Below, in pieces: positions 25,178-61,773 of a stretch of DNA of 64,000 nucleotides (the first letter of the stretch is position 1; each line of letters starts with the position of its first letter). The notes beneath the pieces were generated by a model. It was not told the origin of the DNA and made no database searches. It was given only the letters and a program-made list of their open reading frames with translations. Made by a program: the position numbers and the translations under genes. Origin of the DNA: Leisingera thetidis (GTDB lineage Bacteria > Pseudomonadota > Alphaproteobacteria > Rhodobacterales > Rhodobacteraceae); NCBI RefSeq assembly GCF_025857195.1, contig NZ_CP109787.1, forward strand, positions 1,863,501 to 1,927,500. Direction: 5' to 3'.

Positions 25178-26728
25178 TTAAGCCGGGAGGTGAATGTTGA
25201 ACTTTTCCCGGATTGCCATGTCGGTTGCGGCATCGAACCGGGCGGCGGCGCGCTGGGACAGGATCTGCTCCTTTTTCGCAACCGCCTTTTGGATCAGGTC
25301 GGGTTTGTCGCGTTCTGCCCATTCCTTGGGAGAGGTCCGGTCTCCCAATTCAGGGTAGACATAGTCCACCTGCATCCGGCTGAGGGTCTGATCCGTCCCC
25401 AGGTAATGTCCCGGCCCGCCAAGGCAGGTCGCGCGCATTTGGTCCAGCGCCAGGGTCTCGTCATTCACCTCGATGCCGCGGACACAGCGTTGCGCCTGGC
25501 CAAGCAGATCATTGTCCAGGATCAGCGACTCAAGGCAGAAGCCCAGCAGCGAGGCATGCATGCCGGCTGCTTCATAAACCATGTTGAGACCGGAAAGCCC
25601 GGCCATGACGGCAGAACACATCTGCTCCCAGCCTGCCTGCATGTCGGGCAGTTTGGAGTCTGACGCGCCGCCAGCCGCACCGCCTGGCAGGTTGTAGAAT
25701 TTGTGCATCTGGGCACAGCCTGCGGTCAGCAGCGCCTGTTCGCCAGACCCCACGGACATGGCGCCCGTGCGCAGATCCAGGCCAAAGGGCCAGGTGCCGA
25801 AAATCGCGGGGGCGCCAGGCTTTACGGCGTTTACATAAACCAGGCCGGCCAGGCATTCGGCCACCGCCTGGGTAATGGCTCCGGCGATGGTGGAAGGGGC
25901 AGTGGCGCCAGCCATGCCCGCCGACAGCAGCAGCACCGGCATGCCGCCCTTGATGCATTCCTCCATCACTTCGCAGGATTCGGTCGCGAATTTCATCGGC
26001 GGAACCACAAAGCAGTTGGAGTTGGACACGAAAGGACGTTCGCGCCACTTGTCCTCGCCGCCAGCAATCATGTGCAAAAGCTCCAGGCCAGGTTTCACGA
26101 ACCCGGGTTCCGTGAAGGAGACGCCCACATGTTTGGTTGTGCCGGCCGTGGTGGCGTAGATGGAGTTCAGATCCATTTCGCAATTGTCGGCGATGTCGCG
26201 GCAGACCATCGGGCGCTGGACAAAGTGGATGTTGTCCAGCTGGTCGCAGATGCGGGCGGCATCGTGCAGATCCTGCACGGTGGAGTCGCGGTATTCGCGG
26301 CCATGCACGTCCACAACGCTTACCGCAGCGCCTGCGGTGCCGTAATGCACGCGGCCGCCAGACAGCTGAAGATCTGTTTTGCCGTCGCGGCTGAACAGCG
26401 TGACGGAGCGGTTGGCCTTGGCGATGGTGTCCTCGACAAGGGCGCGGGGGAAGCGGATGCGGCCGTCGTCGCCGGGGATGCAGCCCGCCGCGGTCAGGTA
26501 GTCGATACCGCTTTGCGGGGCGTCAGCGAGGCCGATCTCTTCCAGAGCTGTCAGCGCGGCTTCGTGGATTTTCTCCATGTCAGCCTGGCTCAGCACCTTC
26601 AGAGCAGTGGATTCCATGCCGGGACGGACCGGACGAAGGTGTTCTGGCAGTGCGGCAGCGCGGGCGGCACGGCGTGCATTCCGGCCGCCACTGCGGGTGG
26701 CACGGGACGGGGAGGCTTGATCGTTCAT
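25178..26728 (-). CDS. MttB-family methyltransferase (non-pyrrolysine), likely quaternary-amine demethylation
   Basis: A 516-residue protein of the trimethylamine methyltransferase (MttB) superfamily, a TIM-barrel. The reading frame has no internal TAG, so it is one of the non-pyrrolysine members, of which MtgB acts on glycine betaine; many such genes occur in Roseobacter-group genomes. The first ~45 residues are a basic, disordered extension (SRATRSGGRNARRAARAAAL). The barrel includes HYGTAGAAVSVVD, TAGTTKHVGVSFTEPG, CFVVPPMKFATESCEVMEE and LGGPGHYLGTDQTL. The start at 26728 follows an AAAGG site. No corrinoid protein or methyl-THF transferase lies beside it, so the partner must be elsewhere. 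Substrate is not known. Confidence 0.85.
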   Translation of the reverse strand: MNDQASPSRATRSGGRNARRAARAAALPEHLRPVRPGMESTALKVLSQADMEKIHEAALTALEEIGLADAPQSGIDYLTAAGCIPGDDGRIRFPRALVEDTIAKANRSVTLFSRDGKTDLQLSGGRVHYGTAGAAVSVVDVHGREYRDSTVQDLHDAARICDQLDNIHFVQRPMVCRDIADNCEMDLNSIYATTAGTTKHVGVSFTEPGFVKPGLELLHMIAGGEDKWRERPFVSNSNCFVVPPMKFATESCEVMEECIKGGMPVLLLSAGMAGATAPSTIAGAITQAVAECLAGLVYVNAVKPGAPAIFGTWPFGLDLRTGAMSVGSGEQALLTAGCAQMHKFYNLPGGAAGGASDSKLPDMQAGWEQMCSAVMAGLSGLNMVYEAAGMHASLLGFCLESLILDNDLLGQAQRCVRGIEVNDETLALDQMRATCLGGPGHYLGTDQTLSRMQVDYVYPELGDRTSPKEWAERDKPDLIQKAVAKKEQILSQRAAARFDAATDMAIREKFNIHLPA

Positions 26729-27167
26729 GTTGAGCCTTTCAGGAGGTGTGAGTGGAAATTTCCGGAATTTCAACTCAGTGCGGCCGCCCCCTGGCGGCAC
26801 GGCCTCGGGCCGCACCAATGGTGCGGTGGATGAGGCTGACGAAGCTGCGTTCTCCCTGCATGCGGACTCCTGTTTCTTTCACCGCAAAATGGCATGCTTG
26901 CGCGTCGATTCTAGCACATAAACGACTGCGGTGAAAAAAACGACATATTTTTCATTCGCGGGTGTTGCCCGGGCAGGCGGCCGCTCGCGCCGCGGATCAC
27001 TAAAATCCGATTAGTTTTAATGGTTTAATCTCTATTTTTTACGCTGTGCGGCGCTCTCCGTTGTTGGCAAGCTGGCTGGAGGAACCAAATATTAAGCATT
27101 AATTGCGATACTGGTGTCCTTGGGGATGACGCGCTGAAACGGCGCATTTCGAAGAAGGCAAAGCCAC
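26729..27167. other. Intergenic region between divergent MttB-type and beta-barrel genes
   Basis: About 440 bases holding two opposing promoter regions. Its left half carries a 10-bp inverted repeat with a 40-base spacer (listed separately). Its right half (about 26935-27095) is strongly AT-rich, with runs such as ATTAGTTTTAATGGTTTAATC and TATTTTTTACG, fitting promoter DNA for the beta-barrel gene. I see no credible coding frame; the short readings here lack good start contexts. Confidence 0.5.
26876..26935. promoter_or_regulatory. 10-bp inverted repeat upstream of the MttB-type gene
   Basis: TTTCACCGCA (26876-26885) and its exact complement TGCGGTGAAA (26926-26935) flank 40 bases, about 150 bp before the MttB-type start. 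Arms this long are unlikely by chance in a short region; a looped operator or paired half-sites is possible. Confidence 0.4.
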
Positions 27168-28617: not shown

Positions 28618-28646
28618 TTGGCGGGATTTTCCAGCCGTGCTATGCA
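28618..28646 (+). promoter_or_regulatory. Possible sigma-70 promoter for the cysS leader
   Basis: TTGGCG (28618-28623) and TATGCA (28641-28646) are separated by exactly 17 bases. The match to consensus is moderate (4/6 and 3/6). Transcription would be expected to start six to seven bases after the -10, i.e. at or next to the A of the leader ATG (28653). Confidence 0.4.
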
Positions 28647-28652
28647 GCTCTC

Positions 28653-28697
28653 ATGAACCGTAAATGCACCGCCATCATCTGCTGCATTACCTGCTGA
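28653..28697 (+). CDS. Putative cysteine-rich leader peptide of the cysS-cimA operon
   Basis: A 14-codon ORF, MNRKCTAIICCITC, then TGA. It has four Cys (all TGC), three Ile and two Thr in 14 residues, ending 115 bases before the cysS start. No Shine-Dalgarno site precedes it, but a possible promoter puts the transcript start at the ATG itself, so it could be translated leaderless, as described for the Sinorhizobium trpL leader ORF. Codons 13-15 lie in the left arm of hairpin CCTGCTG/CAGCGGG (28690-28696 and 28703-28709), whose right arm overlaps GCGGGCT (28705-28711), which can instead pair with AGCCCGC (28748-28754). Ribosome stalling at scarce Cys-tRNA could switch between these. Function is inference; a chance ORF remains possible. 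Confidence 0.5.
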   Translation: MNRKCTAIICCITC

Positions 28698-28754
28698 CAT
28701 AACAGCGGGCTGGTTTCTGTCGTTTTCATTTCCCTGACAAGTTGCTAAGCCCGC
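28690..28754 (+). promoter_or_regulatory. Two mutually exclusive hairpins between leader peptide and cysS
   Basis: Hairpin A: CCTGCTG (28690-28696) with CAGCGGG (28703-28709), one G-T pair, loop ACATAA. Hairpin B: GCGGGCT (28705-28711) with AGCCCGC (28748-28754). They share 28705-28709, so only one can form. Neither has a textbook T run; the nearest is CGTTTTCATTT at 28721-28731. An attenuator is inferred, not shown. Confidence 0.4.
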
Positions 28755-28812
28755 GCTGCGCGCAATGGGTGATGCCGGCCGAATTGAGCCGGGCATGGGA
28801 AAGGAACCGGGC

Positions 28813-30195
28813 ATGGGAACCAAGGACATAAAGATCAAGCTGCACAATACAAAGACCCGCAGGAAAGAGGTCTTTGAGCCGATCGAGGCCAGCAACGTGC
28901 GGATGTATGTCTGCGGCCCCACCGTCTATGACCGGGCGCATCTGGGCAATGCCCGGCCGGTGGTGGTGTTCGATGTTCTTTACCGGCTTCTGCGCGAAGT
29001 TTATGGCGTAAATCAAGTGGTTTACGCCCGGAACTTCACCGACGTTGACGACAAGATCAACGCCCGCGCCGCCGAGAGCGGGCGCCCGATCGGAGATATT
29101 ACTGCCGAGACCACCCAGTGGTTCCTGGACGACACGGGCGAGCTTGGCGCGCTTGAGCCCAGCCACATGCCGCGCGCCACCGAATACATCCCGCAGATGG
29201 TGGCAATGATCGAGGATCTGATCGCCAAGGGCCATGCCTATGCGGCCGAGGGCCATGTGCTGTTTGCAGTTGACAGCTGGAAGCAGCTCTATGGCAATCT
29301 GTCGGGCCGCTCCGTCGATGACATGATCGCCGGCGCAAGAGTTGAAGTGGCGCCTTACAAGAAGAATCCGATGGATTTTGTGCTGTGGAAACCCTCCACC
29401 GAGGATCTGCCGGGCTGGGACAGCCCCTGGGGCCGCGGGCGGCCGGGCTGGCATATCGAATGCTCGGCGATGTCCTATGAGCTTCTGGGCGAGACCTTTG
29501 ACATTCACGGTGGCGGTAACGACCTGATGTTCCCGCATCACGAGAATGAAATTGCGCAAAGCTGCTGCGCCCATCCGGAGGGGGAGTTTGCACGTTTCTG
29601 GCTGCACAACGAGATGCTCCAGGTGGAAGGCAAGAAGATGTCCAAATCGCTGGGCAACTTCTTCACCGTGCGCGACCTGCTGGACCAGGGCTATCCCGGC
29701 GAGGTGATCCGGCTGGTGTTCCTGCAGACCCATTACCGCAAGCCGATGGACTGGACCGACAAGAAGGCCAAGGAGGCCGAGGCGACGCTGCGCAAGTGGC
29801 GGGCGCTGACCGCGGGCATCGAGCCCGCGTCCAGCGCTGCTGCCGCGGTCCTGGGGGCACTGGCGGATGACCTTAATTCCGCTGGCGCCATCGCCGAGCT
29901 GCACAAGCTGGCGGCAGCCGGGGATGCGGCCGGGCTGCTGGCTTCGGCCCGAATGCTGGGGCTGTTGACGGCAGAGATGGGCGCTTGGGCAACGGGACCT
30001 TCCATCGACCTTTCGGCCTTTGCGGAAAAGCTCTTCGAAACACGCCAGAAGGCAATGGAAAGCAAAGATTTTTCCGAAGTCGACAGAATGAAGGCAGCCT
30101 TTGTGGAGGCCGGTTTGGAAGTGCGGATGAGCAAGGCCGGTGTCGAACTGGTGCCGGGCGCCGGTTTCGATCCGGCCAAGCTGGAGGCGCTTTGA
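28813..30195 (+). CDS. cysS: Cysteinyl-tRNA synthetase
   Basis: A 460-residue class I synthetase charging tRNA-Cys. The zinc Cys in [10 protein letters not shown], the HIGH-type motif [12 protein letters not shown] (HLGN), the second zinc cluster [10 protein letters not shown] with [20 protein letters not shown], and the KMSKSLGN signature are all present. Start choice: ATG codons at 28765, 28795 and 28813 are in frame. The last is preferred because it begins the conserved strand ([10 protein letters not shown]) and has AAAGGAA at correct spacing. The stop TGA shares its A with the cimA ATG, so the two are coupled. A cysteine-rich leader ORF precedes it. Confidence 0.95.
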
Positions 30196-31829
30196 TGGCC
30201 AGGGAACGCCTCTACCTCTACGACACCACCCTGCGGGATGGGCAGCAGACCCAGGGGGTGCAATTCTCGACCGCGGAAAAAAAGCAGATCGCCCAGGCGC
30301 TGGACGGCCTGGGAGTCGATTACATTGAGGGAGGCTGGCCAGGCGCCAATCCGACCGACAGCGCGTTTTTCGCGGAAGCGCCAATGACCCGTGCCACGAT
30401 GACCGCCTTTGGCATGACCAAGCGGGCCGGGCGCTCCGCCGGGAATGACGACGTTCTGGCGGCGGTGATGAATGCGGGCACTGCGGCGGTCTGCCTGGTC
30501 GGTAAAAGCCACGACTACCACGTGACCGAAGCGCTGGGGATCACGCTGGAGGAAAACCTCGGCAACATCCGCGCGTCGGTCGCCCATATCGTGGCGCAGG
30601 GGCGCGAGGCGCTGTTTGACGCCGAGCATTTCTTTGACGGCTACAAGGATAATCCGGACTATGCGCTGGCGGCCTGCCGCGCCGCACTGGAGGCCGGGGC
30701 GCGCTGGGTTGTGTTGTGCGATACCAATGGCGGCGCGCTGCCGTCGGAAGTCAAGCGGATCGTCTCTGAGGTGATCTCAGCAGGCATTCCGGGTGAGAAA
30801 CTTGGCATACACACTCATAACGACACGGAAAATGCTGTTGCCTGCTCATTGGCGGCGGTGGAGTCCGGGGCACGGCAGATCCAAGGCACGCTGAATGGGC
30901 TGGGCGAGCGCTGCGGCAATGCCAACCTGACCGCGCTGATTCCGACGCTGCTGCTGAAGGAACCTTATGCCAGCCAGTTCGAAACCGGAGTGAGCCAGAA
31001 GGCCTTGGCCGGACTGACCCGGATCAGCCGGATGCTGGACGACATCCTGAACCGGGTTCCGGTGCGGCAGGCGGCCTATGTGGGGGCTTCGGCCTTTGCC
31101 CATAAGGCGGGGCTGCATGCCAGTGCGATCCTCAAAGATCCCTCGACCTATGAGCACATTGAGCCGCATAAGGTCGGCAATGCGCGGGTTATCCCGATGT
31201 CCAACCAGGCGGGCCAGTCGAACCTGCGCAAGCGGCTGACGGATGCAGGCCTGAGCGTTGAAAAAGGCAACCCGGCACTGGTGCGGATCCTAAAACGGAT
31301 CAAACGGCGGGAAACCGACGGGTACTCCTACGATACTGCACAGGCTTCGTTTGAGCTGCTGGCGCGCGAAGAGCTGGGCCAGCTGCCGGAGTTCTTTGAG
31401 GTCAAGCGCTACAAGGTCACCGTGGAACGGCGCAAGAACAAGTACAACCGGATGGTCAGCCTGTCCGAGGCGGTTGTCGTGGTAAAAGTTGATGGGGAAA
31501 AACGGCTGTCGGTCAGTGAGTCGCTGGATGACACCGGCAGTGACCGCGGCCCGGTCAACGCGCTGGCGCGGGCGCTGAGCAAGGATCTGGGGCGCTACTC
31601 CGTCCAGCTGGAGGATATGCGGCTGGTCGATTTCAAGGTGCGCATCACCCAGGGCGGCACCGAGGCTGTAACCCGGGTGATCATTGATAGCGAGGACAGC
31701 CAGGGCCACCGCTGGTCCACCGTTGGCGTCAGTGCGAACATCATCGACGCTTCCTTTGAGGCGCTGCTGGATGCGATCCGCTGGAAACTGATCCACGATG
31801 CCGGGGCCGGGCAGGCCGATGCAGTTTGA
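30195..31829 (+). CDS. cimA: (R)-Citramalate synthase
   Basis: A 544-residue member of the LeuA/homocitrate synthase DRE-TIM family, of the CimA type: pyruvate plus acetyl-CoA gives citramalate, the first step of the threonine-independent route to 2-oxobutanoate and isoleucine. Seen are YDTTLRDGQQTQGVQFS at the N-terminus (catalytic Arg/Asp), the metal-binding GIHTHNDTENAVA, and GTLNGLGERCGNANL. The C-terminal ~130 residues form the LeuA dimer regulatory domain, where isoleucine feedback would act. The start (TGATG overlap with cysS) fits [16 protein letters not shown]. The gene for the following squalene-synthase-like protein overlaps it by 11 bases. Confidence 0.92.
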   Translation: MARERLYLYDTTLRDGQQTQGVQFSTAEKKQIAQALDGLGVDYIEGGWPGANPTDSAFFAEAPMTRATMTAFGMTKRAGRSAGNDDVLAAVMNAGTAAVCLVGKSHDYHVTEALGITLEENLGNIRASVAHIVAQGREALFDAEHFFDGYKDNPDYALAACRAALEAGARWVVLCDTNGGALPSEVKRIVSEVISAGIPGEKLGIHTHNDTENAVACSLAAVESGARQIQGTLNGLGERCGNANLTALIPTLLLKEPYASQFETGVSQKALAGLTRISRMLDDILNRVPVRQAAYVGASAFAHKAGLHASAILKDPSTYEHIEPHKVGNARVIPMSNQAGQSNLRKRLTDAGLSVEKGNPALVRILKRIKRRETDGYSYDTAQASFELLAREELGQLPEFFEVKRYKVTVERRKNKYNRMVSLSEAVVVVKVDGEKRLSVSESLDDTGSDRGPVNALARALSKDLGRYSVQLEDMRLVDFKVRITQGGTEAVTRVIIDSEDSQGHRWSTVGVSANIIDASFEALLDAIRWKLIHDAGAGQADAV

Positions 31830-60906: not shown

Positions 60907-61773
60907 ATGCCGATCCTGCCGCCCTTCCGCCTGTGGCCTGCCGCCTTGAAAACCGCCGCCTGCCGTTTCAACAGAAAGAACGGCTGGGTGATGAGCAGCC
61001 ATATCGCCATGTCGATGATGCTGGCCTTGTTCCCGTTTGTTCTGTTCACTGTGGCGCTGGCGGGCACGGTTGCCGGCATCCTGTCGCAGGATGTGGACAT
61101 GGACAGCATGACCGGGCTGGTTTTCGGGGCCTGGCCGGAACCGGTGGCCAAGCCGATTGTTGCGGAACTGGAGGCTGTGCTTCAGGCCTCCAGCACTCAG
61201 CTTGCAACCCTGGGCGGGCTTTTTGCGCTCTATTTTGCCTCTAACGGTGTCGATGCGGTCCGGGTCGCCCTGGTCCAGGCCTATCATGACACAGACACAC
61301 GGCCCTTCTGGAAATCCCGCGGCCTGTGCCTGGCGCTGGTGATACTGGGCGGTGCAGGCATCCTCGCCGCCGCTGTCTTTGAGCTGCTCCTGCCGCTCTA
61401 CGCGCGCCACCTTGCGGAACTTTTGCCGTTTGCCCAGGTGCCCGGACAATGGGAACAAGGGCTGAGCGGCATATTCGCGCTGCTGCTGCCGACCGGCGCG
61501 GTGCTCGCGTTTCATGTCGTGCTGCCTGGCCGGATACACAGGCTGCGCCGTATCCTGCCCGGCGTTGTGCTGACTCTGTTCCTATGGCTGGCTGCAGGCA
61601 GCGGCTTTGCCGTTTACGTCCGTTCCTTTGCACAATATTCAGCCACATATGCGGGCCTTGCCGGCGCCATGGCAGCCATGATCTTTCTCTACCTGAATTC
61701 TGCCATCCTGATCCTGGGGGCGGAATTCAACGGTGCGCTGATCGATGAAGCAAAGAGAATGGGGCGCAATTGA
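60907..61773 (+). CDS. YihY/BrkB-family membrane protein
   Basis: A 288-residue protein of the YihY/virulence factor BrkB family, with six hydrophobic helices in the usual order (about 35-60, 100-118, 140-162, 185-205, 220-240, 255-280). The conserved early segment NRKNGWVMSSHIAMSMMLALFPFVLF is present, as is the late YSATYAGLAGAMAAMIFLYLNSAILILGAEFNGAL. Long called RNase BN in error; function is not established. The ATG at 60907 was chosen, but its ribosome-binding site is weak; a TTG at 60865 is possible. Confidence 0.85.
   Translation: MPILPPFRLWPAALKTAACRFNRKNGWVMSSHIAMSMMLALFPFVLFTVALAGTVAGILSQDVDMDSMTGLVFGAWPEPVAKPIVAELEAVLQASSTQLATLGGLFALYFASNGVDAVRVALVQAYHDTDTRPFWKSRGLCLALVILGGAGILAAAVFELLLPLYARHLAELLPFAQVPGQWEQGLSGIFALLLPTGAVLAFHVVLPGRIHRLRRILPGVVLTLFLWLAAGSGFAVYVRSFAQYSATYAGLAGAMAAMIFLYLNSAILILGAEFNGALIDEAKRMGRN

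Follow-up and report, generated by a model that had tools for sequence, protein, structure and literature searches.

Upstream of the cysteine–tRNA ligase gene cysS of Leisingera thetidis lies a leader that, judged by comparison between genomes, is real, conserved and functional-looking. We read it, with a probability of roughly two in three, as a ribosome-mediated attenuator of the cysS–cimA operon that senses the charging of two tRNAs, Cys-tRNA and Ile-tRNA. Comparison brings out a conserved upstream ORF (uORF), its Cys/Ile make-up, the position of its promoter, three covarying helices and an association with cimA. The features are given below in coordinates of the window, the whole stretch of DNA analysed (64,000 nucleotides).

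28618–28623, + strand: −35-like hexamer TTGGCG, assigned from sequence; T, T/G and G are conserved at about −36 to −33 from the ATG in 123 leaders
28641–28646, + strand: −10-like hexamer TATGCA, 17 nt from the −35-like hexamer and 6 nt 5′ of the ATG
28653–28697, + strand: leader peptide uORF MNRKCTAIICCITC, 14 aa, probably leaderless, with conserved Cys/Ile codons
28655–28660, + strand: predicted helix P0, 5′ strand (start-codon G plus codons 2–3), pairing with 28711–28716; covaries
28690–28709, + strand: predicted hairpin 1 (segments 1:2), the final codons and most of the stop codon lying in its 5′ arm
28705–28754, + strand: predicted alternative hairpin 2 (segments 2:3), looping out the P0 3′ strand
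28711–28716, + strand: predicted helix P0, 3′ strand, where the U/C-rich tract begins
28714–28727, + strand: U/C-rich, G-poor tract, terminator-like, interrupted; composition taken over 115 leaders anchored at GCGG[GA]
28813–30195, + strand: cysS, cysteine–tRNA ligase (NCBIfam TIGR00435, above cut-off)
30195–31829, + strand: cimA, citramalate synthase (NCBIfam TIGR00977, above cut-off)

Leader ORF and promoter-like elements

The uORF stop lies 115 nt from the cysS ATG at 28813, the distance at which the first-pass annotation had placed a Cys-rich 14-codon ORF. By itself such an ORF is weak evidence, because 2 of the 282 ATG ORFs of 10–20 codons on both strands of the window have at least four Cys; conservation carries the case. 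The other Cys-rich short ORF, MSCCLAGYTGCAVSCPALC, lies at 61514 (+).

The 17-nt spacing between TTGGCG and TATGCA would put +1 at about 28653. A sigma-70 scan does not return this pair, because it requires T at the sixth −10 position. Across 123 leaders, −35-like and −10-like elements are most marked at the same places relative to the ATG (−36 to −33 and −12/−11), with T/A favoured at −12 and A at −11, and a stricter regular expression matched both elements in 84 of the 123. Position −1 is a pyrimidine (C or T) in 119 of 123 leaders and Shine–Dalgarno-like sites occur in 5 of 123. The spaced promoter-like pair and the missing Shine–Dalgarno site, both described earlier for the window alone, recur over the larger set. 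Promoter spacing, the −1 pyrimidine and the rarity of Shine–Dalgarno-like sites fit a leaderless start at the A of the AUG.

Conservation across the family

All 21 same-genus genomes, the window's own included, carry the uORF with its CCITC ending; by eye, the 3′ half of the uORF and the next ~75 nt (~90 nt in all) are nearly invariant among them. At E ≤ 0.01, a blastn search with 136 nt gave matches in 118 of 295 family genomes, which represent 294 genera; some of these matches are short and may be due to chance. Among the best 30 of these 118 matched genomes, own included, cysS lies just 3′ of the leader at 30 of 30 loci.

For a wider comparison we assembled 141 cysS loci, 140 from separate genera plus the window's own. 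The 140 were taken by similarity rank from 282 genomes with cysS, so that the sample leans to closer relatives; listed entries of other genera that were skipped are G076, G091, G150, G200, G201, G218, G236 and G247. A strict structural pattern found the uORF in 75 of the 141 loci. A looser composition rule found it in 125, two of which (L162 and L119) were judged spurious, leaving 123. The 75 leaders were chosen by structure and the 123 by their Cys+Ile content; because of that selection, composition counts are given on the 75 where possible. The first-pass annotation had named non-conservation of the Cys codons in related genomes as one refutation; its reading withstands this check, a Cys-rich uORF being kept at the same place across the family sample.

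A model of the leader, R2, matched 126 of the 141 loci at E ≤ 0.01, all of them loci fetched around cysS. R2 was built from 56 of the 141, and 70 of the 85 remaining loci matched as well. Searched genome-wide, it matched 208 of 244 genomes sampled from the order, 198 of the 208 with a single match (hand count); every order-sample genome listed belongs to the window's family, with 16 unmatched ones outside that listing. Among 289 class genomes, searched with filters that lose weak matches, six were matched at E ≤ 0.001, four of them family members. The other two matches are weak and have no cysS in the fetched stretch; we judged them to be chance, and reject a leader outside the family on these data. 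The uORF calls and R2 differ at a few loci: L065 and L074 have a called uORF unmatched by R2, and L146, L161, L165, L167 and L173 are matched by R2 with no uORF called. In genus g305 (L309, L310, L311, L312 and L314), cimA follows cysS and the uORFs are divergent Cys/Ile ones such as MGTTICIICIASAR. Because genome-wide R2 missed these five, R2 leader counts are lower bounds.

No Rfam family matched the leader at gathering thresholds, and the surrounding 351 nt gave four weak, unrelated matches. The nearest named CysS records are those of Leisingera sp. ANG59 (93%) and ANG-M7 (91%), the window's own records perhaps being excluded from this comparison. At L137 (G238:C2) the cysS match has one in-frame TGA.

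Codons of the leader peptide

Over the 881 internal residues of the 75 structure-chosen leaders (first and last codons excluded), Ile makes up 34.5%, Cys 19.9% and Thr 12.7%, against 3.9%, 0.9% and 4.7% in CysS proteins. In the other two frames of these leaders, the eight commonest residues include neither Ile nor Cys. The most conserved codons of the uORF are the Cys/Ile codons at −5, −4 and −3 from the stop: in the 75 leaders, −3 is Ile in 73, −4 is Cys in 44 and Ile in 27, and −5 is Cys in 60. The 123 composition-chosen leaders give −3 Ile in 116, −4 Cys in 80 and Ile in 38, and −5 Cys in 90. A tandem Cys–Cys occurs in 55 of the 75. Residue order differs from leader to leader and composition is kept, as expected of tRNA sensing.

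Codon choice is skewed for both residues. TGC accounts for 319 of 350 Cys codons in the 123 leaders. Of the 304 Ile codons of the 75 leaders, 171 are ATT, where each genome's cysS would lead one to expect 58; ATT also spells the −3 Ile in 111 of 116 cases in the 123-leader set. This near-fixation at −3 makes an RNA constraint possible there.

Given the footprint of a ribosome, stalls at −5, −4 and −3 would cover segment 1 (28690–28696) and leave segment 2 free, and stalls at the Ile codons −7 to −9 would come too early to cover it. A regulatory role for these upstream Ile codons is weakened, because a ribosome stalled there would miss segment 1. The first-pass annotation had suggested that Ile or Thr might be sensed along with Cys. 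For Ile, the 34.5% share, the −3 codon and the association with cimA described below take the suggestion well beyond its original basis; Thr is enriched as well, to a lesser degree.

Linkage of the leader to cimA

We took the cysS start at ATG 28813, although the same frame is open from an ATG at 28765. In the window, cimA overlaps the cysS stop by one base. It lies 3′ of cysS on the same strand in 136 of the 141 loci, with gaps of −3 to 733 nt (median 110), counted irrespective of any intervening genes.

Over 198 loci, comprising the family sample and genus g24, 159 of the 172 with cimA carry the leader, as against 0 of the 26 without it; the other 13 cimA-bearing loci have no detectable leader. 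These counts exclude L183, at a contig end, and L303, L304, L306 and L308, which had been picked for their lack of a leader. The 26 loci without cimA comprise 22 from g24 and four from other genera. Within g24, 58 evenly drawn loci show the leader in 34 of 36 with cimA and 0 of 22 without. When the four leader-lacking picks are added to g24, 26 of its 62 loci are without cimA. At each of the 26, the window's next gene after cimA stands directly after cysS or within 440 nt of it, so cimA is missing in place.

A FastTree tree of CysS shows at least 10 changes for cimA and 17 for the leader. Six independent pairs lie on supported branches, five in agreement, one without a difference and none in disagreement (sign test, p = 0.0625); g24 alone supplies only two supported independent pairs. 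The link between leader and cimA is thus strong by count, yet few independent events stand behind it. In 21 of 22 no-cimA genomes searched, some of them incomplete, only a distant homologue (31–34% identity) was found. The sole genome found with cimA away from cysS is G065 (L375, L181). An Ile-only leader on a relocated cimA was considered and dropped, since in this single case neither cimA nor cysS is preceded by a Cys/Ile leader. Two g24 genomes have a second cysS-like gene, 53% identical (G809:C1:523040-524350 and G819:C3:246095-247396).

RNA folds

Hairpin 1 has a predicted energy of −11.2 kcal/mol, equalled by 0 of 200 shuffles, and hairpin 2 one of −18.6 kcal/mol, equalled by 1 of 200. 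The two share 28705–28709, confirming the mutual exclusion described from the window sequence. Longer stretches are no stabler than their shuffles (28653–28830, z 0.03; 28653–28728, z −1.06; 28653–28760, z −0.27). The minimum-energy fold of 28653–28728 (76 nt) contains P0 and hairpin 1 together; that of 28653–28760, which includes segment 3, contains hairpin 2 and neither hairpin 1 nor P0. As hairpin 2 wins once segment 3 is included, any termination would need to come early, ahead of the synthesis of segment 3.

Covariation was assessed by folding each of the 123 leaders' own halves against chimeras of halves from different genomes. Own pairings are better for hairpin 1 (−10.73 versus −8.95, z −11.9; reversed control z 0.4) and for hairpin 2 (−23.91 versus −22.6, z −6.3; reversed control z −1.0). 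In hairpin 2, Watson–Crick pairs flank the GCGG[GA][CT] / G[CT]CCGC core in 50 of 83 leaders, against 29.4 expected. The contiguous 1:2 helix taken alone shows no covariation (14.34 own versus 14.21 cross), and the hairpin 1 signal stems from the whole hairpin and not from the bare helix. Standard consensus folding gave little, RNAalifold finding six pairs without covariation in A1 and three weak ones in A2, which is why own and chimeric halves were compared.

P0 joins the start of the uORF to the sequence just before the U/C-rich tract. Eight of the 123 leaders have no GCGG[GA] after the stop and were left out; over the remaining 115, P0 scores 14.05 in own combinations against 11.5 (z 12.0; controls 1.8 and 1.1). 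The signal persists in 60 leaders whose starts differ at four or more of 15 nt (z 9.3; reversed control 3.0) and in 21 at six differences (z 4.1). These covariation z values are optimistic, because related genera are not independent. In 88 of 115 leaders the best helix starts at uORF nucleotide 1–3, and in 25 at the A of the AUG; its register varies, and its length is 4–9 bp in 114 of 115.

In the 10 nt that follow the P0 3′ strand, T makes up 46%, C 31% and G 8% over the 115 leaders. At 28714–28727 of the window there is no uninterrupted long T run, in keeping with the earlier remark that a clear poly-T is missing. A terminator scan lists hairpin 1 (1 found versus 0.6 expected), its U tract interrupted. 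Two other arrangements were tried and rejected: a hairpin P1 inside the uORF is unsupported (z −1.4), and for a four-segment (3:4) terminator no conserved segment 4 could be seen downstream by eye. At L075, L085, L086, L104, L137 and L163 a further GC-rich inverted repeat seems, by eye, to have been inserted after the uORF stop and before segment 2.

Proposed mechanism and alternatives

The scheme that we infer for transcript start, stalling, termination and direction of control is as follows. The transcript would begin at the AUG of a 13–15-codon leader peptide rich in Cys and Ile. With both amino acids plentiful, the ribosome would complete the peptide and depart; the 5′ end of the freed RNA (P0, usually from the G of the start codon at least) would then pair just 5′ of the U/C-rich tract, enclosing hairpin 1, and this combined fold would stop transcription 5′ of cysS. 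With Cys-tRNA or Ile-tRNA scarce, the ribosome would stall at Cys-Cys-Ile (−5 to −3), mask segment 1 and so prevent hairpin 1. Segment 2 would pair with segment 3 (28705–28754), and cysS and cimA would be expressed, the one serving Cys charging, the other starting the citramalate route to Ile. Attenuation through Cys-tRNA, and perhaps Ile, as originally suggested, is supported by these comparisons. A fuller version, which we offer tentatively and at slightly worse than even odds, is that a dual-sensor attenuator couples the tRNA synthetase gene of one amino acid to the biosynthetic gene of another through a terminator whose closing strand is the very 5′ end of a leaderless mRNA. The termination helix would then include the start-codon region of the leader peptide, and one switch would respond to translation initiation, Cys-tRNA and Ile-tRNA together.

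One step of this scheme is awkward. Segment 3 lies past the U/C-rich tract, so 2:3 pairing cannot stop intrinsic termination in time. Either the ribosome alone would prevent termination, with 2:3 pairing consolidating the open state, or the output would be Rho access or RNA stability. The latter belongs to a reading in which the sensing is the same and the folds govern Rho access, RNA cleavage or mRNA stability instead of intrinsic termination. It draws on the interruptions in the U/C-rich, G-poor tract that follows the folds, and on the covariation of a 2:3 helix whose segment 3 would go untranscribed whenever an intrinsic terminator acts. Set against this are the P0 3′ strand, which abuts the U/C-rich tract in the layout of an intrinsic terminator, and the description of uORFC-8-2 by Brewer et al. 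(PMC8632094), who likewise read a terminator; we consider such an output unlikely, though a serious competitor. The same authors' published model suggests a simpler sensor, an attenuator of cysS that responds to Cys only, with Ile codons tolerated for RNA structure and cimA a passenger. Tandem Cys codons are the obvious feature of the leader, and the ATT spelling of −3 Ile (111 of 116, looser set) could be an RNA constraint. Yet Ile outnumbers Cys, its positions shift among leaders, and a regulator of cysS only leaves unexplained why the leader is found at 0 of 26 cysS loci without cimA, all of which makes Cys-only sensing improbable.

Action in trans, by the leader RNA or its peptide, has a precedent in rnTrpL and peTrpL of Sinorhizobium, where trans roles of a leaderless trpL RNA are described (PMC7298713). 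Here the peptide keeps its composition and not its order, and the leader stays with cysS–cimA and is absent where cimA is absent, so a trans role would be additional at most; we think it very improbable as the main function. That the uORF is a chance Cys-rich frame inside a conserved promoter region could be entertained for the window alone, one other of whose 282 short ORFs has at least four Cys. It does not survive the family sample, across which codons, promoter spacing and three covarying helices are conserved: uORF conservation, leader composition and codon positions refute it. The dual-sensing attenuator remains our preferred reading.

Relation to known systems

In the thr and ilv leaders of enterobacteria, one peptide carries codons for several regulatory amino acids of one pathway. 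The leader described here differs in that its codons match two kinds of gene within one operon, one type a tRNA synthetase gene, the other a gene of biosynthesis. Leaderless Cys-rich uORFs of Mycobacterium are reportedly cysteine-responsive and act by translational coupling; they concern different genes and another phylum, and share with this leader a leaderless look and a richness in Cys.

Brewer et al. (2021, PMC8632094) describe uORFC-8-2 with 145 examples, only 5′ of cysS in Rhodobacterales, with tandem Cys codons, stems and a 3′ U run, and predict attenuation with an intrinsic terminator. The window's leader shares its place 5′ of cysS in Rhodobacterales, the AUG uORF, the tandem Cys codons and the dominance of TGC, and is very probably the same motif, judged from place and features as described there and not from their alignment. 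The tandem Cys codons of uORFC-8-2 usually stand at positions 14–15, and those of the window at codons 10–11; another choice of start codon in PMC8632094 could account for the difference. The paper also describes a third paired region forming a three-stem junction, rare and without covariation, which we infer to be P0. The Cys half of the reading is thus already predicted in print. The words isoleucine, cimA, citramalate and leaderless do not occur in the main text of PMC8632094, and within the open-access literature searched the sensing of isoleucine, the link to cimA and the 5′-end helix appear to be new.

By description, the leader also resembles the leaderless trpL attenuator of Sinorhizobium meliloti (PMC7298713), whose transcript begins with the AUG of its 14-residue leader peptide; the start is a predicted one here. 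That leader precedes trpE(G) and has reported trans roles, whereas the window's precedes cysS–cimA.

If true, the reading would mean that what was predicted as an attenuator for a single amino acid is a switch for two, one that ties cysteinyl-tRNA synthesis to isoleucine synthesis, in a large family that includes relatives of Roseobacter, Ruegeria and Phaeobacter. It would make testable why cysS and cimA stay together, and suggests a possible reason for leaderless transcription, namely that the 5′ end is needed in the closing helix of the terminator. In Roseobacter denitrificans both isoleucine routes are described as active with the cimA gene unannotated (PMC2749216), and the cysS–cimA unit suggests where to look for it.

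A match to a pyrrolysine insertion sequence elsewhere in the window

Rfam PYLIS_3, the pyrrolysine insertion sequence of mttB, matches the window at 25567–25666 (−). The match sits in a 546-codon ORF on the same strand (25178–26818). This ORF is open without read-through, and on that ground its product is probably an MttB homologue without pyrrolysine.
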